Positions 424 to 19,795 of a stretch of 21,220 nucleotides of DNA are shown piece by piece. Each line of letters begins with the position of its first letter. The first letter of the stretch is position 1. The notes under the pieces were generated by a model that saw only the letters and a program-made list of their open reading frames with translations, did not search any database and was not told the origin of the DNA. A program made the translations under genes and the position numbers. Source of the DNA: a virus; IMG/VR virus record IMGVR_UViG_3300042905_002955, positions 1 through 21,220 of that record; one strand, written 5' to 3'.

Positions 424-1069
424 TTGCTATCTCCTGTACTTCTCTGAATGAGTATTTATCCCAATAAGTCTTGATTGTGCCAAACATGGACTTCTTATAA
501 TTCGAAGGCGATTCAACGAATTCCTGTAATGTTCCATCGTCAGTAACAATCAAAATGACCACTCTCTCAATCAAATCCTCTTTCTCATGAGATTGATTCC
601 ACATATATGCATATGCAGTTGTCTGATGAAAATAATTAAGAATCTGATCTTTAGTCTTATCTTTGCCTGCTGTTTTAAAATCAACTACAGCCAACTTACC
701 ATCGTATTCTGCAATACAATCTACTCTTCCTGCAAGAAGAATATTGTCTGACCACATTGGAATTTCGATTGCTCGGATGCTAGTAATTTTATCTAGACAA
801 GGCTTCAGTAAATCAAACTTCATCCTATCAAATGGATCTTTTGGTACTATTTTCTCACCAAGATAATCTTCCATCACCTGATGTAGACGATTGCCTCTTG
901 CTAATGCTTTTTTTGAAATGGCAAGATTTTGCGGATTTTTCCTCCACTCTCGCCAAAAGTCTTCCATTTCATGATTGACAACTGTGGTAACCGATGGATA
1001 CCAACGAAAAGTTGTTGGGGATTGATAGTATCTACCTTTACCCTCTAATTCGACAGATTTCAACTTCAT
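389..1069 (-). CDS. PD-(D/E)XK exonuclease, MGME1/RecB-like
   Basis: This 226-aa nuclease has the RecB/Cas4/MGME1 core. R58-G-N-R-L-H63 supplies the upstream histidine, E102 lies in IEIPMW, D117 in AGRVD, and D130-F-K132 gives the D-x-K catalytic pair. Q149-x3-Y153 completes the RecB-family motif. The N-terminal 'YPSVTTVV...W' stretch resembles mitochondrial MGME1 and the single-strand exonucleases annotated in marine T4-like phages. The likely role is processing of ssDNA ends during phage replication or recombination. The start is ATG 1069, three bases after the FmdB stop. No Shine-Dalgarno is visible, so translation probably depends on re-initiation from FmdB. The family is confident; the exact polarity and substrate are not shown by the sequence. 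Confidence 0.85.
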   Translation of the reverse strand: MKLKSVELEGKGRYYQSPTTFRWYPSVTTVVNHEMEDFWREWRKNPQNLAISKKALARGNRLHQVMEDYLGEKIVPKDPFDRMKFDLLKPCLDKITSIRAIEIPMWSDNILLAGRVDCIAEYDGKLAVVDFKTAGKDKTKDQILNYFHQTTAYAYMWNQSHEKEDLIERVVILIVTDDGTLQEFVESPSNYKKSMFGTIKTYWDKYSFREVQEIANEIHQATIQFG

Positions 1070-1072
1070 TGC

Positions 1073-1330
1073 TTAATAGTCACGCATTTTATGCCGTGGG
1101 TGTGCTTTCTTTATTTTAGATAAAACTTCCCTGAAACCGTTATCCACCTTGCCTACGCTGCCAACCCGAATAGGGTCGCAAGCAGATGGAGCCTCTTTAA
1201 TGATCTGTTCTACTTTCTTCTGACCACATTTTTCACAAGGCTTTTTGGTTGGCTTCTTGCGATCATCAATACGAAGCATCTCTTCGAATTCATGGTTGCA
1301 AGCCCTACAGATGTAGTCATAGAATGGCAT
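1073..1330 (-). CDS. FmdB-family zinc-ribbon protein
   Basis: An 85-aa protein beginning MPFYDYICRACNHEFEEM, with a four-cysteine zinc ribbon (C8-x2-C11 and C32-x2-C35) typical of the FmdB regulatory-protein family (PF09723), which is common in phages. The C-terminal half is basic (IKKAHPRHKM) and could contact nucleic acid. The function of phage FmdB proteins is not established; a role in transcription is a family-name assumption. No Shine-Dalgarno precedes ATG 1330, but a CTAAATA box ends 11 nt upstream, so the gene may have its own late-type promoter besides read-through from the 76-aa gene. Confidence 0.85.
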   Translation of the reverse strand: MPFYDYICRACNHEFEEMLRIDDRKKPTKKPCEKCGQKKVEQIIKEAPSACDPIRVGSVGKVDNGFREVLSKIKKAHPRHKMRDY

Positions 1331-1341
1331 AGTACTAGTTG

Positions 1342-1348
1342 TATTTAG
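1342..1348 (-). promoter_or_regulatory. CTAAATA late-type promoter box for the FmdB gene
   Basis: On the minus strand CTAAATAC lies 11 nt upstream of ATG 1330. It resembles the T4 late -10 element TATAAATA. Its TAA is also the stop codon of the 76-aa gene. The same box precedes four other starts in this window. With T4-like spacing, transcription would begin about 6 nt before the ATG, consistent with the absence of a Shine-Dalgarno. Confidence 0.5.
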
Positions 1349-1668: not shown

Positions 1669-1677
1669 GTCTTGACA
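1663..1677. repeat. 15-bp palindrome supplying both divergent -35 boxes
   Basis: TGTCAAG-T-CTTGACA is a perfect 7-bp inverted repeat around a single T. Its right arm holds the plus-strand TTGACA (1672-1677) and its left arm the minus-strand TTGACA (1668-1663). The two promoters are therefore back to back with -35 boxes three bases apart, so two polymerases could not occupy them at once, and the palindrome could also be an operator. Confidence 0.7.
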
Positions 1678-1699
1678 ACTTAAGTTTTGTCTGTATACT
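1672..1699 (+). promoter_or_regulatory. Sigma70-type promoter for rnh, nearly leaderless
   Basis: TTGACA (1672-1677), a 16-nt spacer and TATACT (1694-1699). The ATG of rnh at 1707 lies 8 nt after the -10 box, which is where transcription normally starts. No Shine-Dalgarno is present between the -10 box and the ATG. Confidence 0.75.
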
Positions 1700-1706
1700 A
1701 TTCGGT

Positions 1707-2986: not shown

Positions 2987-3546
2987 TTAGCCCATTTGGC
3001 TAAGTAAAACGAGTCAACCACATCCGAAACTGGACTGATACAGTCCTTGGCATTAGGGGTCATCTCTTTCATGAGATCGACCCCTGTGTCTTTAATAAAG
3101 TGAGCATGCATGATGTCTTTATTAGAATTGCCTTTACCTGTAGCGAATTTCTTTAAAGATGTTGGTGCGATTGTCTCAAACTTGAAACCCTCACTCCACA
3201 GTTTGTGTTTCAACAAGCCGCAATTTTCTGCTATGTGGAAAACTTTACCTTTAGACCCCATGGCATAATCCTCTATCACGATTTTAGCACGAACATCATC
3301 AATACAAGCCATCGCCCATTCTGAAATATCATGAAATCTATGCTCTTGAGTTTTCCACAATTCCTTGTGTGGGTCTCCAACGATACTAATCTTACCCATT
3401 AAAGTTTGAAATTGATATTCTTTCACATGTCGTGAAGTTGAAGTCAAGTATCTCACAGACCACTCCTCACCATCAAATAAACAGATGGCTGGAGAAGTCA
3501 TAGAATAATCTATTCCATAAACTCTCATATTATTATGTATTGACAT
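2959..3546 (-). CDS. RuvC-like Holliday junction resolvase
   Basis: A 195-aa RNase H-fold resolvase. The first strand 'RVYGIDYSMTSPAI' carries D13, 'KIVIEDYAMGSKG' carries E92, and 'PVSDVVDSFYLAKW' carries D175 and D178, the usual RuvC acidic set. T4 itself uses the unrelated endonuclease VII (gp49) for this job, so this may be its functional replacement; other marine T4-like phages also carry RuvC-like enzymes. It is the only minus-strand gene within the replication block, convergent with DUF6433 and divergent from uvsY. ATG 3546 is used here; ATG 3528 (MRVYGIDY) is a good alternative. Neither has a clear Shine-Dalgarno. A weak promoter-like pair (TTCAAT-N17-TATCCT) would give a very short leader. 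Confidence 0.85.
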   Translation of the reverse strand: MSIHNNMRVYGIDYSMTSPAICLFDGEEWSVRYLTSTSRHVKEYQFQTLMGKISIVGDPHKELWKTQEHRFHDISEWAMACIDDVRAKIVIEDYAMGSKGKVFHIAENCGLLKHKLWSEGFKFETIAPTSLKKFATGKGNSNKDIMHAHFIKDTGVDLMKEMTPNAKDCISPVSDVVDSFYLAKWANHTAIDLVV

Positions 3547-3567
3547 TTCAAGATTTTAGGATACAAT
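3540..3567 (+). promoter_or_regulatory. Sigma70-type promoter for uvsY, leaderless
   Basis: TTGACA (3540-3545), a 16-nt spacer and TACAAT (3562-3567), with the uvsY ATG starting 8 nt after the -10 box (3575). Spacer and -10-to-ATG distance are identical to the rnh promoter. No Shine-Dalgarno is present. The -35 box overlaps the first codons of the divergent RuvC-like gene. Confidence 0.75.
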
Positions 3568-3574
3568 TTACGCA

Positions 3575-4012
3575 ATGAATATTGAAAGAATCCGTGAAAT
3601 GGCCGAAACCGACCTGAAAATGGACGGAACTGAACTTGCAGATGAATCTGTTCGAATTCCTCAACTGCATGGAAAGTATCTTAATATTTTCCACGACGAA
3701 TCTCTCATATTGAGAAAGTATGAGGCTGATTACAAAATTCTTCGAAGACAGAAATGGGAGTACTATTCGGGCAAGATGTCAAAAGACGAACTTACCGCTT
3801 TAGGTTGGGAGCAGTTTGACCACAGAATTCTTCGGCAAGATATGGATGTTTATCTTGATTCAGATGCTGATTTGATCAAGATCCAAACGAAAATTGACAT
3901 GCAAAAACAAAAAGTTGACTATCTAGATTCTATTCTCAAAGGAATCAACAATCGTCAATGGGTCATTCGCAACGCCATTGAGTGGCGTAAGTTCATGTCT
4001 GGTGTAACCTAA
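3575..4012 (+). CDS. uvsY: UvsY recombination mediator
   Basis: A 145-aa protein similar in length to T4 UvsY (137 aa) and matching the marine-phage form: 'ESVRIPQLHGKYLNIFHDE' (about 24-42), 'ILRRQKWEYYSGKMS', 'LGWEQFDHRILRQDMDVYLDSD' and the C-terminal 'VDYLDSILKGINNRQWVIRNAIEWRKF'. UvsY loads the UvsX recombinase onto gp32-coated ssDNA. UvsX and gp32 are not in the window, but UvsW and gp46/47 are just downstream. The start matches a leaderless promoter. The stop codon TAA lies inside a CTAAATA box that precedes uvsW. Confidence 0.92.
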   Translation: MNIERIREMAETDLKMDGTELADESVRIPQLHGKYLNIFHDESLILRKYEADYKILRRQKWEYYSGKMSKDELTALGWEQFDHRILRQDMDVYLDSDADLIKIQTKIDMQKQKVDYLDSILKGINNRQWVIRNAIEWRKFMSGVT

Positions 4013-4015
4013 ATA
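4009..4015 (+). promoter_or_regulatory. CTAAATA box immediately before uvsW
   Basis: CTAAATAC ends 7 nt before ATG 4023 and contains the uvsY stop codon. It is identical to the boxes before late genes on the other strand. uvsW has no Shine-Dalgarno, and a T4-like late start here would give a leader of about 2 nt. T4 uvsW is expressed late, which fits, but this single plus-strand case could be chance. Confidence 0.4.
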
Positions 4016-4022
4016 CGAATGA

Positions 4023-5546
4023 ATGAATGTGATAGGTGTTCGTCATGTAAACTCTGCGTTTATCCGTGTCCTTGCAGACAATGGAATCGCATATGAGTTG
4101 CAAGACTATTTTACTTATGATGTTCCAGGTGCTAAGTTCACTCCTGCCTTTAAGAACAAGTACTGGGATGGTAAAATCAGGCTATTCAACGCACACTCGG
4201 GACTTCTTCCTGCGGGACTAATTGAATATCTTGCCTCGTTCTCGCAGCAGCGTGGGTACACAATGGAAGTGGACTCACTACTAGCAAGTCCCGAAATCAA
4301 AATAAATTGCGAAAAGGCCAAAGATTTCATCAGGAGCCTCAAACCCAAAGCAGGAGACCAACCTCTTGATCCACATGACCACCAAGTAGATGCGTTTTGT
4401 CACGCTATCAATAAGTCTCGTTGTGTGCTTCTGTCTCCAACTGCTAGTGGTAAGAGTCTAATCATCTATAGTCTATGTCGCTACTATCAAAATGTAATTA
4501 ATCCGTCGAGAAAGATACTCATAGTTGTTCCCACAATCTCGCTAGTTGCACAGATGTATGCAGACTTTGATGACTATTCAAAAAACTCGGGATGGGAAGT
4601 TCACAAAAACTGTCACAAAATTCATGGTGGTGTGGCTAAACTAACAGATCGTCAGATAGTCATCTCCACATGGCAATCTATTTACAAAATGCCCCGTGCT
4701 TGGTTTGACAATTTTGAGGTTGTTATAGGCGACGAAGCGCATCTATTCAAGTCGCAATCGCTAACAACTATCATGAACAAGTTGGTTGATTGTCCCTACA
4801 GAATTGCTCTTACGGGAACACTCGACGGAACGAAGATCCACAAGTTGTGCATCGAAGGTTTATTTGGACCTGTCAACAAAGTTGTATCCACAAAAGAACT
4901 CATGGAGAGGGAACTATTAACGGCGTTGAAGATCGAATGCGTACTGTTCAAATATCCACAAGAGATTCGTGAAGCCTTAAGAGGTCTAGATTATCAACAT
5001 GAAATTGATTGGATTGTCAACTGTGAAAAACGCAATTTCATGATCTCTAAACTCGCAACATCCGTAAGAGGCAACACTCTTGTTCTGTTTCAGTATGTCG
5101 AGAAACACGGTAAGCCTCTATATGAGATGATTCGTAAGATGGCTCCTATTGAAATAGAAAACCGTAAAGTGTTTTTCGTAGCAGGAGAAACTGATGTGGA
5201 TGACCGTGAGCAAATTCGCCACATTGTAGAAAAAGAAGACAATGCAATTATTGTTGCTTCATATGGGACATTTTCCACAGGGATTAATATCAAGTCTTTG
5301 AAAAATTTGATCTTCGCTAGTCCATCCAAGAGTAGGATTCGAATCCTTCAGAGCATCGGTAGACAACTTCGTAAATCAGAAAACAAAGATATCGCAAAGT
5401 TATACGATATAGCGGACGATTTACACTGGGAAGATGAAGTAAACTATACCTTCAAACACTTCTTATCCCGAATGAAATTATACGACGAAGAAGGGTTTCC
5501 GTACAAAATTGTTAAGTTGCCTGTTTATGGAAAGGACAAACCATGA
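4023..5546 (+). CDS. uvsW: UvsW ATP-dependent DNA helicase
   Basis: A 507-aa SF2 helicase close to T4 UvsW (about 500 aa). The N-terminal domain shows 'DYFTYDVPGAKFTPAFK...YWDGKIRLFN...LLPAGL', as in T4. Helicase motifs are Walker A PTASGKS (139-145), DEAH (237-240), TGT (264-266) and motif VI QSIGRQLR (443-450). UvsW unwinds R-loops, regresses forks and branch-migrates recombination intermediates, driving the switch from origin-dependent to recombination-dependent replication. It follows uvsY by 10 nt and overlaps the Sm-like gene by ATGA. Two other ATGs (4019, 4027) are out of frame; 4023 is the only in-frame start there. Confidence 0.95.
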   Translation: MNVIGVRHVNSAFIRVLADNGIAYELQDYFTYDVPGAKFTPAFKNKYWDGKIRLFNAHSGLLPAGLIEYLASFSQQRGYTMEVDSLLASPEIKINCEKAKDFIRSLKPKAGDQPLDPHDHQVDAFCHAINKSRCVLLSPTASGKSLIIYSLCRYYQNVINPSRKILIVVPTISLVAQMYADFDDYSKNSGWEVHKNCHKIHGGVAKLTDRQIVISTWQSIYKMPRAWFDNFEVVIGDEAHLFKSQSLTTIMNKLVDCPYRIALTGTLDGTKIHKLCIEGLFGPVNKVVSTKELMERELLTALKIECVLFKYPQEIREALRGLDYQHEIDWIVNCEKRNFMISKLATSVRGNTLVLFQYVEKHGKPLYEMIRKMAPIEIENRKVFFVAGETDVDDREQIRHIVEKEDNAIIVASYGTFSTGINIKSLKNLIFASPSKSRIRILQSIGRQLRKSENKDIAKLYDIADDLHWEDEVNYTFKHFLSRMKLYDEEGFPYKIVKLPVYGKDKP

Positions 5547-6098: not shown

Positions 6099-6686
6099 AT
6101 GGCTAAAAGAAAAAAAGAAAATCACTATATCGACAATCAAAAGTTCCTAGAGGAACTTATTGAACATAAAAAATTACACACCAAAGCAAAGAAAAATGGA
6201 GAAAAGCCTCCAGGTGTGTCCAATTATATTGGACAGTGCTTTTTGGATATCGCACTCAACTTAGCGAAGAAACCCAATTTTGCTAATTACATTTTCAAAG
6301 AGGAGATGATATCCGATGGCATTGAAAATTGTATAATGTACACCACAAATTTTGACGAAAAGAAATCAAAGAACCCTTTTGCCTTTTTTACTCAAATAAT
6401 CTACTATGCCTTTCTTCGTAGAATAATGAAAGAGAAGAAGCAACTATTCGTCAAGATGAAATGCTTTGAGAACTCAGATAAAACGGGAAAGTTCAGAAAT
6501 AGAATGATGGAAGATAGTAAGTTCTCAGACTCAGAACCTAGAAGCGAAAATCCTTACGCCGATTACTTCTCCCTTAGCGATAACGACATCCAAAATTTCG
6601 AAGGAACTTCAGAAAACAAAATAATCAAGAAGAAAAAGCGTAAGAAGAAATCATCCAAAGAAAACCTAGAAGGCTTGATGGAGTGA
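6099..6686 (+). CDS. 55: gp55-type late-transcription sigma factor
   Basis: A 195-aa homologue of T4 gp55 (185 aa), the minimal sigma-70-family factor that directs RNA polymerase to late promoters. 'IALNLAKKPNFANYIFKEEMISDGIENCIMYTTNFD' (about 50-85) followed by 'NPFAFFTQIIYYAFLRRIMKEKKQ' (about 92-115) is the region 2-like core that recognises the -10 element. The C-terminus has a lysine-rich patch (KKKKRKKKSSK) and ends ENLEGLME, a short hydrophobic/acidic tail that may be the clamp-binding epitope known for gp55. It starts the gp55-gp47-gp46 transcription unit; gp47 follows by 1 nt. Its probable targets are the CTAAATA/NATAAATA boxes listed here. Confidence 0.95.
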   Translation: MAKRKKENHYIDNQKFLEELIEHKKLHTKAKKNGEKPPGVSNYIGQCFLDIALNLAKKPNFANYIFKEEMISDGIENCIMYTTNFDEKKSKNPFAFFTQIIYYAFLRRIMKEKKQLFVKMKCFENSDKTGKFRNRMMEDSKFSDSEPRSENPYADYFSLSDNDIQNFEGTSENKIIKKKKRKKKSSKENLEGLME

Positions 6687-9537: not shown

Positions 9538-9846
9538 TTACTCGACCAAAGTCAGTTTCGGTGATGCAACACTCTTGTCAGGAACGATGAGACCGCTGTT
9601 CATCGTGTTGTATTCATTGACCAAATCAATCTTGGGAGTGACTTGGAAAGCAACCACCTTAGACGGAACTTCCATGTTTTCCGTTTCCGCATAAGGCATC
9701 CAAGGAACTAGAGCGAGTCTACCCTGACCAGCAGGAAGCAGAATGCATGGGTTCTTGAGAACAAGTCCACCATCTTGAGTTTCATCAAGTACCTTAGCAA
9801 TCACTTCTTCACCCGAAACCATTCTAATTAGTTTAACATTGTCCAT
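9538..9846 (-). CDS. Sm/LSM-like small protein (paralogue 2, late)
   Basis: A 102-aa protein starting MDNVKLIRMVSGEEVIAKVLDE. The run 'hKLIRMVSGEEVIAKV...LKNPCILL...LVPWMPY...VPSKVVAFQVTPKIDLVNEYN' aligns segment by segment with the 5543-5908 protein (IRIVRLVSNETLICGI...PWMEF...VPEKMVV...YNDVLKDYNE), but lacks its acidic tail. 'VSGEEVIGxV'-type openings are typical of Sm-fold barrels in phages. The function is unknown; RNA binding or a structural role are both possible. It has its own CTAAATA late box and an AGGAG Shine-Dalgarno, so it should be made late, while its paralogue lies in the replication operon. Confidence 0.7.
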   Translation of the reverse strand: MDNVKLIRMVSGEEVIAKVLDETQDGGLVLKNPCILLPAGQGRLALVPWMPYAETENMEVPSKVVAFQVTPKIDLVNEYNTMNSGLIVPDKSVASPKLTLVE

Positions 9847-9867: not shown

Positions 9868-9874
9868 TATTTAG
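9868..9874 (-). promoter_or_regulatory. CTAAATA late-type promoter box (Sm-like paralogue 2)
   Basis: CTAAATAAG on the minus strand, two bases after the stop of the 1141-aa gene and 21 nt before ATG 9846. The AGGAG Shine-Dalgarno lies between the box and the ATG. This is a late promoter with a normal leader, in contrast to the near-leaderless ones. Confidence 0.6.
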
Positions 9875-12800: not shown

Positions 12801-13302
12801 ACCCAATTGTCCACAGATAATCATATGATGTCTGTGCCGCATATATGTTTTTACTTAGATGTGAAAGTTTAGATCCGACAAATGTATCGACAAAATCATT
12901 TTGATCTACAAATCTATTCAGATAAATTTTTCCGTCGATTTCATCAGAAAACACAATGCTTTGACCATCATAAAGTTTTCCTCTGTTGATATAAAGATCA
13001 GGATTGTGTTTAGCATAGGCTAAATCTAAAGGAAAATTCCAATATGCTATTTCACCAGGCTGTCCGGTATAAGGAAAGAGATTTTCTCTTTTTACTTTTT
13101 CGTCAGCAGAAGCCGGAATAGGAATTCCTTCATAAATTCCTTCTCTATCATTCATTATATTTGAATTTAATGGCAACCGTATAATTATGCCTTCATTTTT
13201 TTTAAATGGTCTTGTGTAACGATCATCACCATCAGTTTTTAATTGTGGGATTGATTTAGATATATCAAATCCAAAAGTTCCTTTCAGTCCACTAATAGCC
13301 AT
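9877..13302 (-). CDS. Large unrecognised late protein, 1141 aa (probable virion component)
   Basis: I do not recognise this protein. ATG 13302 (MAISGLKGTFGF) is preferred over GTG 13305, because AGGAG lies 7 nt upstream and the upstream TGA overlaps it as TGATG. The protein is rich in Asn, Ser, Tyr, Gly and aromatic residues, has no signal peptide or membrane helix, and looks beta-rich. A cysteine knot-like run CEGCEGC lies near residue 455, with about 20 other scattered cysteines. 'YAITKRHVLGT' (about 342-352), followed by 'KIHFWDKINEKVIERDIVASIPI', resembles the strand-histidine-strand pattern around the active site of trypsin-like folds, but the expected catalytic histidine position looks like Asn; this is weak. 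Length, late-block position and composition suggest a tail, fibre or decoration protein. It is AT-rich compared with the replication genes. Confidence 0.75.
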   Translation of the reverse strand: MAISGLKGTFGFDISKSIPQLKTDGDDRYTRPFKKNEGIIIRLPLNSNIMNDREGIYEGIPIPASADEKVKRENLFPYTGQPGEIAYWNFPLDLAYAKHNPDLYINRGKLYDGQSIVFSDEIDGKIYLNRFVDQNDFVDTFVGSKLSHLSKNIYAAQTSYDYLWTIGYGFVPYLLGSVIEGIRSGARRFIIGPINQYTSNPEFGNYCTSTLDSMGSYGDMACSGTGPYQNFKFVMPFYRRDGFESRNDLFNYKVETKLNSSNPINTKFLEFTPFSHENLNYSGFRLKDRKSLPVPYSEYDKSTIDLGASSGVGILPEDDFYYGLNKLYPWISTATSRSKGYAITKRHVLGTLNPFHSYSYPENSPSNINPIGYASAITGQPPFSDTSFPQKIHFWDKINEKVIERDIVASIPIDVRTIHNAIKEILNDQLLKLDSNFSCSSSNPAAAQLATCEGCEGCVVEDEGFDWYDFIHLKDVLIDDFKTPIGTCLDKKQFTSNTSKNKKIYKILFRNEKIREIKKSILSNLPPMDEDPTVPSNSLEGSLSGLPTAAINAIREFFPYGLNNIFYGYFNTNDHTKNSCTWQYIVSHFKAILDAKCAIHLLNEDLPDGVTPIAFLDTRRSETHKFSMFLDNSDRGFILNRCSPSPHIFAHTIGEGYAVASSINTYQNPLKSSMITFNMTRIGNCDNLYPQGFLESCDEIGESSSGTKCKWRLYGINCGAAPTKPGIRSGVEIGVHYKPQGIYDTEKTKRNACFVCDDEPVTALTKKIPTGSLPDDILLDFSLSNYNSERPDGSSDIPAPLFTYNENKIPIMTDMIMGSEFISANKNYEQVAALTCLVTGHSEDFEWIKGTEVWQNFDGTIGGGDSFTELQPKWKVYKHSKDNGVLTLYSPRQSSGNLILPTEVLSGGDSCNNTIFGFYGGTGYIKTTLDITDNPCLNPISYGVKHQIGNKKGYLYDSSGKYLEVIRGGPRFFSGFSYLLQSSVSSVIEDTSEISFARNYACEFTQSKPSLSTHELSENFDHDLGSYWEQSYNYHNIGTFLSDQKIYYRANPSDIVNKYYYFGTPSDIFYKILDKFNLENGVSGLYKCNKQVIKDSPLFGEMQNPNPKLPNSENENEPIQSKKFKAKHGPGPHIYEKEFLK

Positions 13303-13514
13303 CACTTATCTCCTAGTTGAAATCCGTGGATGCCTTTACGAGTCTTTTCTTTTTTACTGAACGGCATTTGTACGGGCTGTATTACACTTGGTTTATTTGC
13401 CTTTCTAGACAGATCGGTGCGAGTATTTAATTTAGAGGTTACTCTAGCCGTGTGAGCAGTGGGTATGGACCACTCCTTCACAGATTTAATTAGATTAAAG
13501 TAATTTTTAGGCAT
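13302..13514 (-). CDS. Small basic late protein, 70 aa
   Basis: A 70-residue, strongly basic protein (MPKNYFNLIKSVKEW...PFSKKEKTRKGIHGFQLGDK) with many Lys, Arg, Ser and Thr and no hydrophobic segment. It is not recognised. It lies directly upstream of, and is coupled (TGATG) to, the 1141-aa gene, so it may be a chaperone or partner of that protein. No Shine-Dalgarno is present; a CTAAATA box ends only 6 nt before ATG 13514, so the mRNA would begin practically at the start codon. Confidence 0.7.
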   Translation of the reverse strand: MPKNYFNLIKSVKEWSIPTAHTARVTSKLNTRTDLSRKANKPSVIQPVQMPFSKKEKTRKGIHGFQLGDK

Positions 13515-13520
13515 TTATTG

Positions 13521-13527
13521 TATTTAG
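13521..13527 (-). promoter_or_regulatory. CTAAATA late-type promoter box (70-aa / 1141-aa operon)
   Basis: CTAAATACAATAA-ATG on the minus strand: the box ends 6 nt before ATG 13514. If initiation follows T4 spacing, the first transcribed base is within one base of the ATG. The box sits just downstream of a strong terminator, so it is the only evident source of late transcription for this operon. Confidence 0.6.
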
Positions 13528-13549
13528 TAGACAATCAAATTGAATAGAA

Positions 13550-13573
13550 AACGGGGGGAGTACTCCCCCCGTT
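13550..13573 (-). terminator. 24-bp perfect palindrome terminator
   Basis: AAC-G6-AGTACT-C6-GTT is a perfect 24-bp palindrome. On the minus strand it is followed by TTTTCTATTC, giving a rho-independent terminator after the 37-aa gene. It separates the 921-aa/37-aa transcript from the CTAAATA-driven 70-aa/1141-aa operon. Confidence 0.8.
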
Positions 13574-13597: not shown

Positions 13598-13711
13598 TCA
13601 CTTATTCCACGGAAGTTTTGCTGACACCCACTTCCACATCGGTGCTCCGATCAAAGTGCCAGCGATAAACATTAAAACGCTCCACCAAGTTGTACCTAGA
13701 AATTCTGGCAT
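13598..13711 (-). CDS. 37-aa single-pass membrane miniprotein
   Basis: A short ORF with clear expression signals: AAAGGAG 8 nt before ATG 13711, 20 nt behind the stop of the 921-aa gene, and ending shortly before the strong terminator. The peptide starts MPEFLGTTWWSVLMFIAGTL and ends MWKWVSAKLPWNK, giving one hydrophobic helix (about residues 9-24) with a basic, Trp-rich C-terminal end. No cleavable signal is apparent. Its size and topology suit a phage inner-membrane peptide such as a holin-like, antiholin-like or superinfection-related factor, but nothing in the sequence selects among these. The gene fills the gap between 13574 and 13731. Confidence 0.75.
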   Translation of the reverse strand: MPEFLGTTWWSVLMFIAGTLIGAPMWKWVSAKLPWNK

Positions 13712-13731: not shown

Positions 13732-16497
13732 TTACATATAGGAAATTACTTTAAGAAATCTATCAAATGCAAATTCAGATTTAATTCTGTTTATTGTTTG
13801 TGTTGATGGTTTGTAATTATAATATAGTGATTTGTTTGTATTTTTTGAATCTTTGAATATACTTCCGAAGTATGATAAAGAGTTACCAACTGTACCCGGT
13901 TTTCTCATGTTGGAGTATTCGGGGAATTGTCTAAAGATATTTTCATAGAATGAATACAAAGTTCCTTTAGGATCTAAAAACCCATAAAGATCACTTATTA
14001 CTGCTTTTTTCATATCATCTGATATATATTCACTTGTAAAAAACGAAGTATTAATATTCACATAGTCACTAAATTGACATGTGCAGGATATGGAAGGTTG
14101 AATGCTGAGACATAGACCGCCCGGCACATCTCTCTCGCAACAAGATTCTTCCTGACCATTATTATCTGTCCTTTTCAATCCACAACAATCACAAAGATCG
14201 GGTTCTATTTTAACCGAGTCTGCACATGGATGTATGCAATTTTGTGATTGATTCGCTTGTGTACAAGGAGTATCGGGAATAGTCTCACCAGAACTTGTCC
14301 ATTGATTTGAAGACCGACCACATGAAGCAGCACCATATAATCCAGATCCGCTAAATGGTCCACTACCGGAACCGGAACTTGCTGCACCTTCGCCAGCCGA
14401 ACCAGCATAGCATTGTGGAGGTTTAGCATCTACATCTCCATCACTATCAGAATCAACGCAACAGCACACATTGGGATTGTTTCTATATTGTCTACACTTT
14501 CGTTGATACAAACTATAAGGACTTCCGGTGGGTGGCGGTCCTGGATTGACAGGACATGTGCCACAGGCTCCGGATTGGTCTGGCTGGTAAGCGGCATCAC
14601 AATTCTCACACTCATATTCGCAGAATTTAATTTGTATGCATGTATTATTTGAATCTGGAATAATCAGACCTTGATCATTGCAATACTGAACATATTCAGG
14701 ATTGTGTGGGCCAATTTGTGTCCAGCATCCAAAAGATCCCCCGTTTTCCGAAAGAGGACCACCAGGCAATAAAGAGGCGCAAGTTTTTGGTGTTCCGGAA
14801 GTAAATATAGGATCATTGAAGGGGATGAAGGTTCCAGAAGCACCGTTTAGATTACAATCACCTTCACATATTCCAGATCCGGGTGAATCACCCTGATAAC
14901 TATCGGAACAATATCCAATTCCTCCTTGTGAAACACAACAAACACCTTTTGGACATCCCCCTCCACCACCACAATCACATTCAATACTTCTTAGAGGAAG
15001 ATATTCGGCATTTTCCCCATCATTTGCGGGGGAAGAACAATTTGATCCACACTGTTTCCACCTAACACTTTTATATTGTTCAACCTGTAGACTATCTGCT
15101 GGAGATTGCTCTCCTCTTTGGGAAATACTTCTTAAACTCCAACCATCTCCTATTGGAATACTTTCAGCAAAAGTTCTAAGTTGATTTGCTGCCACATTCA
15201 AAGACAAATCAATAAGAACTTCATTTTTCACATTTTGCCAAGGAATTGAATTTGTATTTGATGTGTTGTATACCTTTTTAGATATATAATTTCTCGCTCT
15301 AATAACTGCTTCCACATCATCTTCGGATAAAGATGTGGATCCAGTACAAGCCAATTCAACTAACAGAGGAATATTATCTTGGTAAATAAATCCAACAGCC
15401 CCGGCGAAAGCAGCGGGTTCAAGCATACCTGCTCGTAAAAATTCTACACTTATATCCGAATCTGCTGCCCCCGAACCCCCCATTCCGGATGCGCCTGTAT
15501 ATCCAGAATAAAAGTTAACGATTTCTCCACTAGCACCAAATGCCATTCCATAAGTGTTTGTAAATTCTCCATTCGGATCATCGAAAACATTAATTTCTCT
15601 AGACCTTATCATGCTATTAACAAGCGGCATAACTTTGAAATCTCTTTCAAGTGCATGCTGTGTTTTTGCAAATGTGTTTGCAATTTTAACAAGATCTCTC
15701 GTATATCTGTGATGATCTACTACAGAATGTACATTTACACCAAATTCTGTGTTGTTTGTTGCCACAGGATTAATATCAGGACAAGCCCAACCAGAATTTT
15801 CAAGAATAGTTAGACATCTGTTAACTGAATTTGTTTTAAAATAATCTACTAGTTTACTTGGAGATTTAGACCATTCAAAAATTTGTTCTCCATAAGATGC
15901 GCCAGTTGGATGTGCTGCATCCCAATGATTATTTGTTGCACCAGGTGTATTTGTTAGCCCCTGTGTCCATGTGAAAGAGGATCCAGCAGTTGGAGCAAAA
16001 CATGTATATTTTGGTAAGAACGGAAGTCCAGCATATGCCCATTTAATTAGGGGGTATTTGTTTTTGAAATGGTCTAATATGTTTATAGCAGCAGATAAAG
16101 TATCCGTATACGCTTCATAATTTGCTGTATTACTTTGTCCAATAATTCCATCACCAACAAGATGTTTCCAAGAATCTCCCCTGAAATCTAAAAGACCAAA
16201 TCCTTCTGTTGAATGTGTAACACCAAAATCAATCGAAACGGAATTAGCCATTCCAGTAAGTTCTGCACCCGCAATTGATGTTAAACTTTTACTAGATGCT
16301 AAAAATGCAACAAGGTAGTCACAACCCGATACAGGAGTTTCGGACATTCTATTTTCATAGTAATCTTTTAGGTGAGATCCTGCTGCACTACCGTAATTTG
16401 GAATGGGATTTACTTTATTCCCTTCCGAACTTACATATACATTTGTGAATGATGGATAACAGTTGAATATTCTAAAATGTGATGTTTCAATTGACAT
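13732..16497 (-). CDS. Cysteine-rich 921-aa late protein, unrecognised
   Basis: This protein has three parts. Residues 1-480 are a cysteine-poor, alpha/beta-looking domain with alternating strands and helices ('SVSIDFG', 'IKWAYAGLPFLP', 'GVNVHSVVDHH', 'KVMPLVNSMI', 'GAVGFIYQD'), which could be a TIM-barrel or hydrolase-like fold, by impression only. Residues 483-807 hold 36 cysteines, including C-x-C, CC and CCC groups, glycine/proline/serine linkers, and a DSDSDGDVD loop (682-690) that matches the D-x-D-x-D-G-x-x-D calcium loop of dockerin and thrombospondin type-3 repeats. Residues 808-921 form a cysteine-free helical C-terminus. The gene is in the late block, so it is likely on or with the virion. 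Such disulphide-style composition is odd for a cytoplasmically assembled phage. ATG 16497 has no Shine-Dalgarno; a GATAAATA box lies 8 nt upstream. Confidence 0.8.
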   Translation of the reverse strand: MSIETSHFRIFNCYPSFTNVYVSSEGNKVNPIPNYGSAAGSHLKDYYENRMSETPVSGCDYLVAFLASSKSLTSIAGAELTGMANSVSIDFGVTHSTEGFGLLDFRGDSWKHLVGDGIIGQSNTANYEAYTDTLSAAINILDHFKNKYPLIKWAYAGLPFLPKYTCFAPTAGSSFTWTQGLTNTPGATNNHWDAAHPTGASYGEQIFEWSKSPSKLVDYFKTNSVNRCLTILENSGWACPDINPVATNNTEFGVNVHSVVDHHRYTRDLVKIANTFAKTQHALERDFKVMPLVNSMIRSREINVFDDPNGEFTNTYGMAFGASGEIVNFYSGYTGASGMGGSGAADSDISVEFLRAGMLEPAAFAGAVGFIYQDNIPLLVELACTGSTSLSEDDVEAVIRARNYISKKVYNTSNTNSIPWQNVKNEVLIDLSLNVAANQLRTFAESIPIGDGWSLRSISQRGEQSPADSLQVEQYKSVRWKQCGSNCSSPANDGENAEYLPLRSIECDCGGGGGCPKGVCCVSQGGIGYCSDSYQGDSPGSGICEGDCNLNGASGTFIPFNDPIFTSGTPKTCASLLPGGPLSENGGSFGCWTQIGPHNPEYVQYCNDQGLIIPDSNNTCIQIKFCEYECENCDAAYQPDQSGACGTCPVNPGPPPTGSPYSLYQRKCRQYRNNPNVCCCVDSDSDGDVDAKPPQCYAGSAGEGAASSGSGSGPFSGSGLYGAASCGRSSNQWTSSGETIPDTPCTQANQSQNCIHPCADSVKIEPDLCDCCGLKRTDNNGQEESCCERDVPGGLCLSIQPSISCTCQFSDYVNINTSFFTSEYISDDMKKAVISDLYGFLDPKGTLYSFYENIFRQFPEYSNMRKPGTVGNSLSYFGSIFKDSKNTNKSLYYNYKPSTQTINRIKSEFAFDRFLKVISYM

Positions 16498-16505
16498 AGG
16501 ACTAT

Positions 16506-16513
16506 TATTTATC
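16506..16513 (-). promoter_or_regulatory. GATAAATA late-type promoter box (921-aa gene)
   Basis: GATAAATAATAG on the minus strand, matching 7 of 8 positions of the T4 late box TATAAATA, ends 8 nt before ATG 16497. The predicted leader is about 3 nt and no Shine-Dalgarno is present. Confidence 0.6.
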
Positions 16514-17115: not shown

Positions 17116-17423
17116 TAGTCAACCCTTGAAAATTCTTCTTCATTCAATTTAAAAATAATAGCACCATCAGTTCCTAGTACTTGCTTGATAGAATTGATAT
17201 TTGGATCAGTTCTAAGTTTAATGGGAATATTTACATATTGATTGACTAAATTTTGATAAACCCGGATTCCCTTTTTACAAGAACAAGTATTTGGATCTTT
17301 ATAAGACTTCATCATTCTATAAAATGAATAGATTGAATTGTGGATTTCATTATTAATCTCAATTCCACATGAATCAATTCTTTCATAAAAATCTTCTGGT
17401 CCTTGAAATGTAATTTCATGCAT
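17115..17423 (-). CDS. Hypothetical protein, 102 aa
   Basis: A 102-residue protein beginning MHEITFQGPEDFYERIDSCG; it includes a C-S-C pair within 'DPNTCSCKKGIRVYQNLV' and ends KLNEEEFSRVD. It appears mostly helical and is not recognised. AAAGGA 9-10 nt before ATG 17423 supports the start. It overlaps the DUF1360-like gene by 8 nt and the metallopeptidase gene by one base, so the three are translated together and may function together. Confidence 0.75.
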   Translation of the reverse strand: MHEITFQGPEDFYERIDSCGIEINNEIHNSIYSFYRMMKSYKDPNTCSCKKGIRVYQNLVNQYVNIPIKLRTDPNINSIKQVLGTDGAIIFKLNEEEFSRVD

Positions 17424-17775
17424 TTTTTATTTTCCTTTCAATTAATGCAAATATAGAGCAGATTAATTGCCCACCAAAATAAACTATAGGTATATTTTCG
17501 GGCGAGTTTGTTGTCATGCAGATACCAAATGATGTCCAAACACCAAAACAGTATCTACACGACAGTAATTTTATTAAAAACGAATTTTCATGATGGATCG
17601 ACATCCAATCAGAATAACTCATACCATCATTAGTTTTTTTATACTGACGAACTTTAGTCAATCTATTAAACAATTTCATCGGCCAAGATGAAATGTAGGA
17701 ATATACCGCAGATGTCTCGTATAGAATATAGAGAACAAGTCCCGACCAAAATGTTTGTATCGCTATAATATCCAT
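17416..17775 (-). CDS. DUF1360-like membrane protein
   Basis: A 119-aa protein with about three hydrophobic segments (residues 3-28 'IIAIQTFWSGLVLYILY...', about 72-88, and about 95-111). The second carries 'LLSCRYCFGVWTSF', which matches the C-x2-C-x-G/S-V-W signature of DUF1360-type small membrane proteins found in phages and Bacillus. Function is unknown. It has a CATAAATA late box and an AGGG Shine-Dalgarno 7 nt before ATG 17775. It heads the 17775-16519 operon. Confidence 0.7.
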   Translation of the reverse strand: MDIIAIQTFWSGLVLYILYETSAVYSYISSWPMKLFNRLTKVRQYKKTNDGMSYSDWMSIHHENSFLIKLLSCRYCFGVWTSFGICMTTNSPENIPIVYFGGQLICSIFALIERKIKNA

Positions 17776-17789
17776 AATATGCCCTGAAT

Positions 17790-17797
17790 TATTTATG
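17790..17797 (-). promoter_or_regulatory. CATAAATA late-type promoter box (DUF1360-like operon)
   Basis: CATAAATAATTCAGGG on the minus strand: the box ends 14 nt before ATG 17775 with a Shine-Dalgarno in between. A TTGACA (17812-17817 on the plus-strand coordinates, read on minus) in the end of nrdJ is upstream but lacks a convincing -10 box at 16-18 nt, so the late box is preferred. Confidence 0.55.
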
Positions 17798-17802
17798 CTG
17801 AA

Positions 17803-19764
17803 TTATGACGATGTCAAATCCACCAATTCACATTTATCTCCAGAACCAGCATAGGTTTGAGATCCAGCCGTTCTATCTTCCTTCTCATACTTGGAGAGAT
17901 CAGACCAGTTTACATTCTTTGGCATTTGAGCCAAAAGGGTTTCATATTCTTCCTTTGTGCAATCTTGATACGGAGCCTGCTTGTATGAGTGGTCGCTGTG
18001 GGGCAGGAAGGAAATTCCAGACACCTCATCAAAGTGTTCATACACCCAAGCACCAACATCCATCCATTCGTGTTCACGAACGGTAATGGTAATAGACGGC
18101 TTATGTTCACACCAATGTCTCTGATAGGTCAACCAAAGATTCAGATGTTCAATTGCAGTTAGATCATTGCGTGTCAAACACCCATCGGGAGACTTCATGG
18201 GGAATGAAAATACTCTAGTGTGGTCGGGACGCATTACGCAAGGCTCAGAAGGGAATCCTGCCTCCTGCATCATCTGACAGAGGGGATCTTTGATGTCTGC
18301 ACGAACCGTGCGAATGTAGTATTGACTGTGTCTTGGGTGCATTCCTGAAGCAGCATCAGTCAACTGAGAAACAGTTCCCGAAGGCTTGACACATGTAATT
18401 GCAGCAGCGGGATTGATACCAAGTCTCTTTGCCCATTCTGCATTCACTTCAATGGTTTTGTTCTTCACGGTCTCAAGAATATTTGGTAGTGAAGACGGCA
18501 AAAGAAGATCACTATTATCAGACATCGAAAGCATCATCTTGTTGTCCAACTGACCAGTCATGGAAACGCCAAGAAGTGCTTCTTCCTTACAATTCTTCGA
18601 CCACTCAGAAGAAATGTATTGGAAATTAGTGAGTGATGCTTGCATCGTACCTAGAATGGCAGCAATACGAGCCTTTCTCAGAAGATCTTCTACGGTGTCT
18701 GTTGGACGAATGATGATCTCCGTAAGATTACAGAACTCACGATCACGAAGAATGATTTCAGAGCAGGGATTCGTACCAAATTCATGGTTAGGATCACGAC
18801 GATCACCTAACTTTGAAACAGTCTTTTGTGCTGCGGCTCTATTGAAGATACCACGCTCACCACTCTTGCTGTTGTAGAGAGACAGCCACTCCTGCATGAA
18901 GGTTCCGATTTCAGGCTTTTCCTTGTATGCAACGCTATTGTTTGCGAGTGCCCGTTGTGGATTGGCTTCCCACCAAGCACCGCTCTTGGCATTACGCATT
19001 CTCTCATCGCCAAGTTCTGAAAGTGAAATGAGTGCCGAGCGACGAACGCCCCCGACAACTACGATCTCTGCGATCTTGCAAACAATGTCATGACATTCGA
19101 TTGAAGTCAACTTGCGACCCGCAGACTTTCGGAAAGTCTCCACGGTGAACTTGAATAGATCTTCAAGTGGACGAGGACCAGATGCTCTGCCACCGAATGT
19201 CTTCAGTCGAGCACCCGCAGGACGAACCTTTGACACATCCCACTTGGGGATCTGACCTACGATGAGAAGACTGATCAGTTCACGGAAAGCCTTTGCCCAA
19301 CCCTGCTTTGAATCGGCAACATTGATGAGGGTATCGCTATCGCTGAACTCTTCGGCAATGGTTGGTAACTTCTCAACAAACTGACGCTCGACAGAGAATC
19401 CAACCCCCGTACCACACATGAGAACATAGAGAATCTCATCGAATGCACGAACCCGATTGATGTGAACATAGGCACAGTTGTATCCAGCAATGTTGTCTCG
19501 TTCAAGGGCTTCGCCTGCTGTCATGAGACATCGCATTGAAGGAAGCACCTCAAGATTGAGAACTGCCTGACGAAGTTCTTCACGCTCTGACTTCGATAAC
19601 TTTCCTTTAGTAAAAATTGCGAGATGCTTATCGAAGAAGTTGAAGTAGCGATTGACTGTCTCCTCCCAAGTTTCTCTTCGTCCCTTATTTTCAAGCCATC
19701 TTGAATAGCGTGATAAGTGAATAAATTGTTGATACTCAGTCGGCAGTCGAATCTCGTCAGACAT
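17803..19764 (-). CDS. nrdJ: Class II (adenosylcobalamin-dependent) ribonucleoside-triphosphate reductase
   Basis: A 653-aa monomeric RTPR-type enzyme (Lactobacillus form 739 aa) that makes deoxynucleotides without oxygen or a metallo-radical subunit. N-terminal redox cysteine C97 lies in 'GYNCAYVHI', with 'LMCGTGVGFSV' at 115-124. The active-site loop is N332-P-C334-S-E336-I, and C345 lies in FCNLTE. 'VVGGVRRSALISLSE' is also typical. The C-terminus reads YAGSGDKCELVDL: C645 is present but the partner cysteine expected five residues earlier is G640, so the usual C-x4-C shuttle pair is incomplete. AAAGGAG 8 nt before ATG 19764 and a CTAAATA box give strong expression signals. GC content is visibly higher than in the flanking late genes. 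Whether the host supplies B12 is not shown. Confidence 0.93.
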   Translation of the reverse strand: MSDEIRLPTEYQQFIHLSRYSRWLENKGRRETWEETVNRYFNFFDKHLAIFTKGKLSKSEREELRQAVLNLEVLPSMRCLMTAGEALERDNIAGYNCAYVHINRVRAFDEILYVLMCGTGVGFSVERQFVEKLPTIAEEFSDSDTLINVADSKQGWAKAFRELISLLIVGQIPKWDVSKVRPAGARLKTFGGRASGPRPLEDLFKFTVETFRKSAGRKLTSIECHDIVCKIAEIVVVGGVRRSALISLSELGDERMRNAKSGAWWEANPQRALANNSVAYKEKPEIGTFMQEWLSLYNSKSGERGIFNRAAAQKTVSKLGDRRDPNHEFGTNPCSEIILRDREFCNLTEIIIRPTDTVEDLLRKARIAAILGTMQASLTNFQYISSEWSKNCKEEALLGVSMTGQLDNKMMLSMSDNSDLLLPSSLPNILETVKNKTIEVNAEWAKRLGINPAAAITCVKPSGTVSQLTDAASGMHPRHSQYYIRTVRADIKDPLCQMMQEAGFPSEPCVMRPDHTRVFSFPMKSPDGCLTRNDLTAIEHLNLWLTYQRHWCEHKPSITITVREHEWMDVGAWVYEHFDEVSGISFLPHSDHSYKQAPYQDCTKEEYETLLAQMPKNVNWSDLSKYEKEDRTAGSQTYAGSGDKCELVDLTSS

Positions 19765-19788: not shown

Positions 19789-19795
19789 TATTTAG
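19789..19795 (-). promoter_or_regulatory. CTAAATA late-type promoter box (nrdJ)
   Basis: CTAAATATATCG on the minus strand ends 24 nt before ATG 19764, with the AAAGGAG Shine-Dalgarno in between. Late-type control of nucleotide reductase is unusual, since phage nrd genes are normally early; an additional distal promoter is possible. Confidence 0.5.

Follow-up and report, generated by a model that had tools for sequence, protein, structure and literature searches.

Does the distance between a T4-type late promoter and the start codon behind it reflect how that gene is translated? The question arises at a 70-amino-acid (70-aa) gene of a viral contig, analysed here over its whole length of 21,220 bases (the window), in which a late box lies next to an ATG without a Shine-Dalgarno (SD) site. 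A sequence-only reading had proposed that such genes are translated from leaderless messages and genes with a more distant box through an SD, each mode being used deliberately. The locus itself comprises the following features:

13302-13514, minus strand: 70-aa gene, beginning MPK, without an SD
13521-13527, minus strand: late box CTAAATA of the 70-aa gene, 6 nt from its ATG; predicted +1 at 13515, a 1-nt leader
13550-13573, minus strand: terminator hairpin AACGGGGGGAGTACTCCCCCCGTT followed by TTCTATT, upstream of the box (-21.6 kcal/mol, z -3.7)

The 70-aa protein had no Pfam or PHROG match, and no sigma-70 promoter was found for the gene. Read-through into it from the side of the neighbouring 921-aa gene should be blocked by the terminator; a terminator stands at the equivalent place in a diverged ortholog (L086), and an apparent 3' arm of one in the orthologs of L165 and L170. 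Because the gene fell below the threshold of our gene caller, it was assessed through its orthologs, and all 8 distinct upstream regions of these, extending to 44% protein identity, had a box 6-7 nt from the ATG and no SD. Just before the terminator, a previously unlisted 36-aa open reading frame (MPEFLGTTWWSVLMFIAGTLIGAPMWKW..., 13601-13711, minus strand), with the SD AAAGGAG, looks like a small membrane protein.

The gene content of the window is T4-type (RNase H-like, uvsY, uvsW, gp55, gp47/gp46-like and nrdJ), and a gp55-type sigma factor is encoded both here and by relatives. The remaining late boxes, their genes and the sigma factor gene are:

4009-4015, plus strand: late box CTAAATA of uvsW, 7 nt from the ATG; predicted +1 at 4021
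4023-5546, plus strand: uvsW helicase gene, without an SD
16506-16512, minus strand: late box ATAAATA of the 921-aa gene, 8 nt from the ATG; predicted +1 at 16500
13732-16497, minus strand: 921-aa gene of unknown function, without an SD
1342-1348, minus strand: late box CTAAATA of the FmdB-like gene, 11 nt from the ATG; predicted leader 6 nt
1073-1330, minus strand: FmdB-like zinc-ribbon gene
17790-17796, minus strand: late box ATAAATA of the DUF1360-like gene, 14 nt from the ATG; predicted leader 9 nt, with GGG only
17416-17775, minus strand: DUF1360-like gene
9868-9874, minus strand: late box CTAAATA of Sm-like 2, 21 nt from the ATG; SD CAGGAG
9538-9846, minus strand: Sm-like 2 gene
19789-19795, minus strand: late box CTAAATA of nrdJ, 24 nt from the ATG; SD AAAGGAG
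17803-19764, minus strand: nrdJ gene
453-459, minus strand: eighth late box ATAAATA, 29 nt before a 75-aa open reading frame (196-423); SD CAGGAG in the leader
6099-6686, plus strand: gp55-type late sigma factor gene (PHROG 234, E 4e-53), the expected reader of the boxes

Counted from the last A of TAAATA, the seven box-to-ATG distances of the sequence-only reading (6, 7, 8, 11, 14, 21 and 24 nt) were all exact; the eighth box was absent from its list. TAAATA stands no more than 30 nt before the start of 8 window genes; 200 Markov shuffles averaged 0.34 such genes and never had more than 3. C or A precedes the word in all 8 gene-linked boxes, compared with 2 of its 16 remaining occurrences in the window. 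Over the window as a whole, MTAAATA occurs at chance level, neither rarer nor commoner; it is the position of the word relative to genes that is enriched, not the word. The TAA of the uvsW box (4010-4012) is also the stop codon of the upstream uvsY, an overlap with the preceding gene that recurs at 11 of the 26 near genes in the window clade and at 11 of its 53 far genes (near and far referring to the distance of the box from the ATG).

The position at which RNA would start was inferred from the far boxes, 220 of which gave a purine fraction of 0.80 at the sixth base after TAAATA versus 0.46-0.69 elsewhere; the peak recurred in each group of phages, also in T4 and the cyanophages. T4 numbering places TATAAATA at -13 to -6 (PMC2988020). 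Since the purine peak at the sixth base matches the T4 late start, a box 5 nt from the ATG would start RNA on the A of AUG, and by the same geometry spacings of 6, 7 and 8 nt would leave leaders of 1, 2 and 3 nt. The leaders of 0-6 nt anticipated for the SD-less genes of the window accordingly come out, from T4 geometry and the purine peak, at 1 (70-aa), 2 (uvsW), 3 (921-aa) and 6 nt (FmdB-like), with 9, 16 and 19 nt predicted for the DUF1360-like, Sm-like 2 and nrdJ genes. The purine peak at these far boxes supports initiation about 6 bases after the box only indirectly, and at the commonest spacing in the window clade, 6-7 nt, T4 geometry leaves a leader of 1-2 nt unless the start shifts.

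The comparison covered near-identical and diverged contigs as well as complete records of relatives and of named phages. Genes were called from dicodon scores and ATG preference; because the caller used neither SD nor box, start positions were not selected to produce the result. SD strength was expressed as duplex energy with ACCUCCUUA over positions -19 to -4, and an SD was called at -4.5 kcal/mol or below. Energies were positive for all four window genes that had been said to lack an SD (70-aa, +1.5; uvsW, +0.1; 921-aa, +0.6; FmdB-like, +1.0 kcal/mol). The companion claim, that all three farther genes have one, held for Sm-like 2 (-7.4 kcal/mol) and nrdJ (-8.2 kcal/mol) but was overstated for the DUF1360-like gene, which has a bare GGG (-3.1 kcal/mol). 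The predicted relation between SD presence and box-to-ATG distance was also present when tested on the genomes of relatives: SDs accompanied 2 of 26 near and 43 of 53 far genes in the window clade, 1/12 and 17/21 in G004, 1/15 and 8/8 in the Pelagibacter phage HTVC008M, and 0/8 and 15/22 in Melnitz and G015 together.

How much of this relation follows from geometry alone was addressed by a control in which a box was written over other upstream regions at the same spacing, after which an SD remained in only 6-10%. With 2 of 26 near genes in the window clade having an SD against 10% expected from geometry, we rejected the absence of SDs as independent evidence: in about 90-94% of cases the mere placement of the box abolishes the SD, whose absence therefore adds nothing beyond spacing, and the independent evidence of intent is spacing together with conservation. 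Far genes of the window clade showed an SD excess (81% versus 59% of box-less genes, P = 0.0009). Near genes were not distinguished by A content or folding in their first 40 nt. In some far late genes that lack an SD, a hairpin separates the box from the ATG (ACAGGU...ACCUGU, kept in three genomes, or CGUAAAC...GUUUACG, ending at AUG); these hairpins are possible translational operators and precede the following genes:

L178, 16241-18478, minus strand: hairpin-bearing far late gene
L196, 5281-7506, minus strand: hairpin-bearing far late gene
L180, 951-3386, minus strand: hairpin-bearing far late gene

Across phages, spacings fell into two classes separated by a gap. In G004 (168 kb, 51% GC, with an nrdJ 79% identical to that of the window), 10 boxes lay at 5-7 nt, 2 at 9-15 nt and 17 at 17-25 nt, which under a uniform null over 5-25 nt gives P = 0.005 for the near excess and P = 0.0009 for the gap; G005 had the same pattern, with 7 boxes at 5-7 nt. 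HTVC008M had 11 genes at exactly 5 nt, 13 at 5-7 nt and none at 9-15 nt (same null; near excess P = 3e-7, gap P = 3e-4), and a box at exactly 5 nt was also found at three genes of Melnitz and four of G015. No box at 5-8 nt was found in T4, S-PM2, Syn9, phiM12, Cr30, S-PRM1, RL2RES or DLP6; VH7D had one and P-SSM4 three. Two TATAAATA-N5-ATG sites stand at positions 107303 and 172868 of the P-SSM4 record, making leaderless placement in cyanophage rare rather than absent. Column-shuffled upstream regions yielded 0.5-1.1 boxes at 5-7 nt per set, compared with 18 observed in the window clade, 13 in HTVC008M, 5 in G015, 3 in Melnitz and, in the same comparison, 0 in T4, S-PM2, Syn9 and phiM12. A 26-bp gap in HTVC008M (18917-18942; L239), between the divergent DNA end protector and head closure genes, holds one late box for each, both 5 nt from their own ATG, and is a compact bidirectional late promoter.

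The spacing class was also kept among orthologs at about 35-75% identity. For uvsW, the box lay 5-7 nt from the ATG in the 7 closest distinct ortholog upstream regions (72-100% identity) and was absent in the next three (71-72%); a uvsW tree, asked whether this arrangement had a single or multiple origins, had an unresolved backbone, with at least 3 changes forced by supported branches. Homologs of the 921-aa gene had the box at 8 nt (G003, 76% identical) and 7 nt (G001, 44%), the box of a baseplate wedge gene (799 aa in G004) stayed at 7-9 nt, and that of a 312-348-aa family stayed at 6-7 nt. HTVC008M and Melnitz had near boxes in common at cyclase and end-protector genes, the proteins of which are only 39-47% identical. 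Among the orthologs listed, those of nrdJ and Sm-like 2 had a far box and an SD wherever a box was present. FmdB orthologs mostly had the box at 11 nt (others at 7, 8 and 12 nt), and none of those with a box had a strong SD; DUF1360-like orthologs had it at 13-14 nt with only GGG as SD, except for 6 nt in the L098 ortholog, and this gene is possibly an intermediate between the two initiation modes. Neither FmdB, at 11 nt, nor the DUF1360-like gene, at 14 nt, belongs cleanly to one class; both are conserved intermediates.

A similar geometry was found at two early promoters of the window:

1672-1706, plus strand: sigma-70 promoter TTGACA...TATACT, ending 7 nt before the ATG (1707) of the RNase H/exonuclease-like gene; no SD
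3540-3574, plus strand: sigma-70 promoter TTGACA...TACAAT, ending 7 nt before the ATG (3575) of uvsY

The uvsY geometry was kept in orthologs to about 75% identity. In the window clade, a -10 hexamer ended 6-7 nt before the ATG in about 15 cases, some of them mutual orthologs, against a shuffle mean of 0.15-0.35 per set; T4 had no sigma-70 promoter at 6-7 nt spacing. The link to early promoters drawn in the sequence-only reading is thus supported by a sigma-70 peak at 6-7 nt that includes both genes, and their promoters would be the early leaderless counterparts of the near late boxes, a reading made without RNA data.

These spacings could mislead if start codons were mis-called, the box-adjacent ATG belonging to the promoter or the initial transcribed sequence and the true, SD-led starts lying downstream; a few HTVC008M proteins indeed have an N terminus 13-14 residues longer than their homologs, and four box-ATG pairs in Melnitz are out of frame with the next gene. 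Against mis-calling, the N terminus aligned in 45 of the 53 near genes having homologs, GenBank gives identical starts for every one of the 11 HTVC008M genes whose box lies at exactly 5 nt and for those Melnitz genes that were compared, and a downstream ATG with an SD occurred within the first 45 codons in only 3 of the 42 near genes examined. Every box-N5-8-ATG at a gene start was the called start (14 in HTVC008M, 6 in G003, 10 in G004 and 7 in G005), and no upstream out-of-frame pair of this kind was found in those four genomes; in Syn9 and S-PM2, the six such pairs that lie upstream of genes were all out of frame. We regard mis-calling as highly improbable. Hardly credible, in our judgement, is the idea that near boxes are chance AT-rich words or translation enhancers and not promoters: although MTAAATA is at chance frequency in the window, the spacing peak stands far above shuffles in genomes of 50% GC, far positions carry the same (C/A)TAAATA word, and several near boxes sit directly after terminators.

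Compaction and translational coupling would explain the near class differently, with boxes squeezed into short gaps and ribosomes stopping and restarting on read-through mRNAs. Indeed, 38 of 51 near genes lie a median of 14-15 nt behind a same-strand gene, so coupling could serve them too, and the upstream stop codon inside the box TAA (the 11 of 26 near genes above) points the same way. However, compaction predicts neither the sharp peak at 5-7 nt nor its match to the start position, and T4 is also compact yet lacks boxes at 5-8 nt. Among genes without a box, those behind a similarly short gap have an SD at about the frequency of the others (40/77 and 16/24), so compaction itself does not remove SDs. 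Moreover, 13 of 51 near genes have a divergent upstream neighbour or a terminator-like hairpin before the box (a few of these hairpins being weak matches), which makes read-through unlikely to supply their mRNA. Main mRNAs that read through from upstream promoters, which were to refute the two modes, are thus very unlikely for these 13 and for the 70-aa gene and remain possible, via coupling, elsewhere; as the explanation of the near class, we consider compaction with coupling unlikely.

The reading we favour, and hold to be quite probable, is that gp55-read late promoters have two placements, leaderless near the gene and SD-led far from it, together with a leaderless early set under sigma-70. 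The boxes would be T4-type late promoters read by the phage gp55-like sigma factor, whose use here is inferred. At 5-8 nt, RNA polymerase would start at the A of AUG or up to three bases ahead of it, as inferred from T4 geometry and the purine peak; the near-class mRNAs would then be leaderless, and recognition of a 5'-terminal AUG without SD pairing may drive their translation, an inference made without ribosome data. Boxes at about 17-30 nt would leave a leader just long enough for an SD site, which is usually present, and the set of sigma-70 early promoters would use the same leaderless geometry. The boxes, their spacing classes, the SD distribution, ortholog conservation, the contrast among lineages and the block to read-through at some genes are directly observed in silico. 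The SD correlation, the two spacing classes with a gap between them, the near peak at the inferred start and the conservation of class together support the two proposed initiation modes; without transcript-start or ribosome data, leaderlessness remains inferred. More speculatively, and with considerable doubt, several T4-like lineages of unrelated aquatic hosts (SAR11, OM43 and the unknown host of the window phage) may each keep a conserved leaderless set under sigma-70 and gp55, a stable, gene-specific trait that could exploit or tolerate changes in ribosomes or initiation factors during infection.

For T4-like phages, these results link the mode of translation to the placement of the promoter at the resolution of single bases, and they provide testable start sites in cultured phages; in HTVC008M, primary 5' ends on the A of AUG are predicted for the genes at record positions 6280, 7562, 11972, 16007 (minus strand), 18916 (minus strand), 18943, 31132, 49760, 75559, 75830 and 142360. 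They also affect annotation, because gene callers that demand an SD before a start will overlook or shorten near genes. Leaderless mRNAs and T4 late promoters are known already, but the literature searched yielded no systematic leaderless class built on T4-type late promoters; that search, outside the coverage of which lay many subscription papers and any Syn9 transcriptome paper, found no leaderless T4-like late transcripts.

The late promoters of T4 (gp55/gp33/gp45) share with those described here a TATAAATA-like box, a start about 6 bases after it, a gp55 homolog and the lack of a -35 element (the absence of which was checked separately only at the 70-aa gene). Genes for the gp33 co-activator and the gp45 clamp do not lie in the window. 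T4 boxes stand some 12-30 nt ahead of the ATG, with an SD in 23 of 27 such genes, and none stands at 5-8 nt, whereas the window phage has an additional class at 5-8 nt and the consensus (C/A)TAAATA. Lambda cI, the classic phage case of a leaderless mRNA, is a single gene with a host-type promoter. Cyanophage late promoters (S-PM2, Syn9: NATAAATA, PMC2984593) have the same box and the same purine peak 6 nt after it, but their boxes mostly lie 15-30 nt from the ATG, SDs are mostly absent at all distances, and spacings of 5-8 nt number none in S-PM2, Syn9 and S-PRM1 and three in P-SSM4. Late promoters of pelagimyophages were reported not to be satisfactorily detectable by the published cyanophage method (PMC7029224); in HTVC008M, by contrast, a TAAATA-N5-ATG signature is clear in the present analysis. 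The near class shares with known leaderless mRNAs (lambda cI; Actinobacteria and Deinococcus-Thermus, PMC3160421) the lack of an SD and a -10 element about 10-12 nt before the start codon; in bacteria, a -10 element lying about 10 nt ahead of the start is an established ground for inferring leaderlessness (PMC3160421). Unlike these classic cases, the class described here is mainly served by a phage late-sigma promoter, spans many genes, structural ones included, and stands beside a conserved SD-led class.
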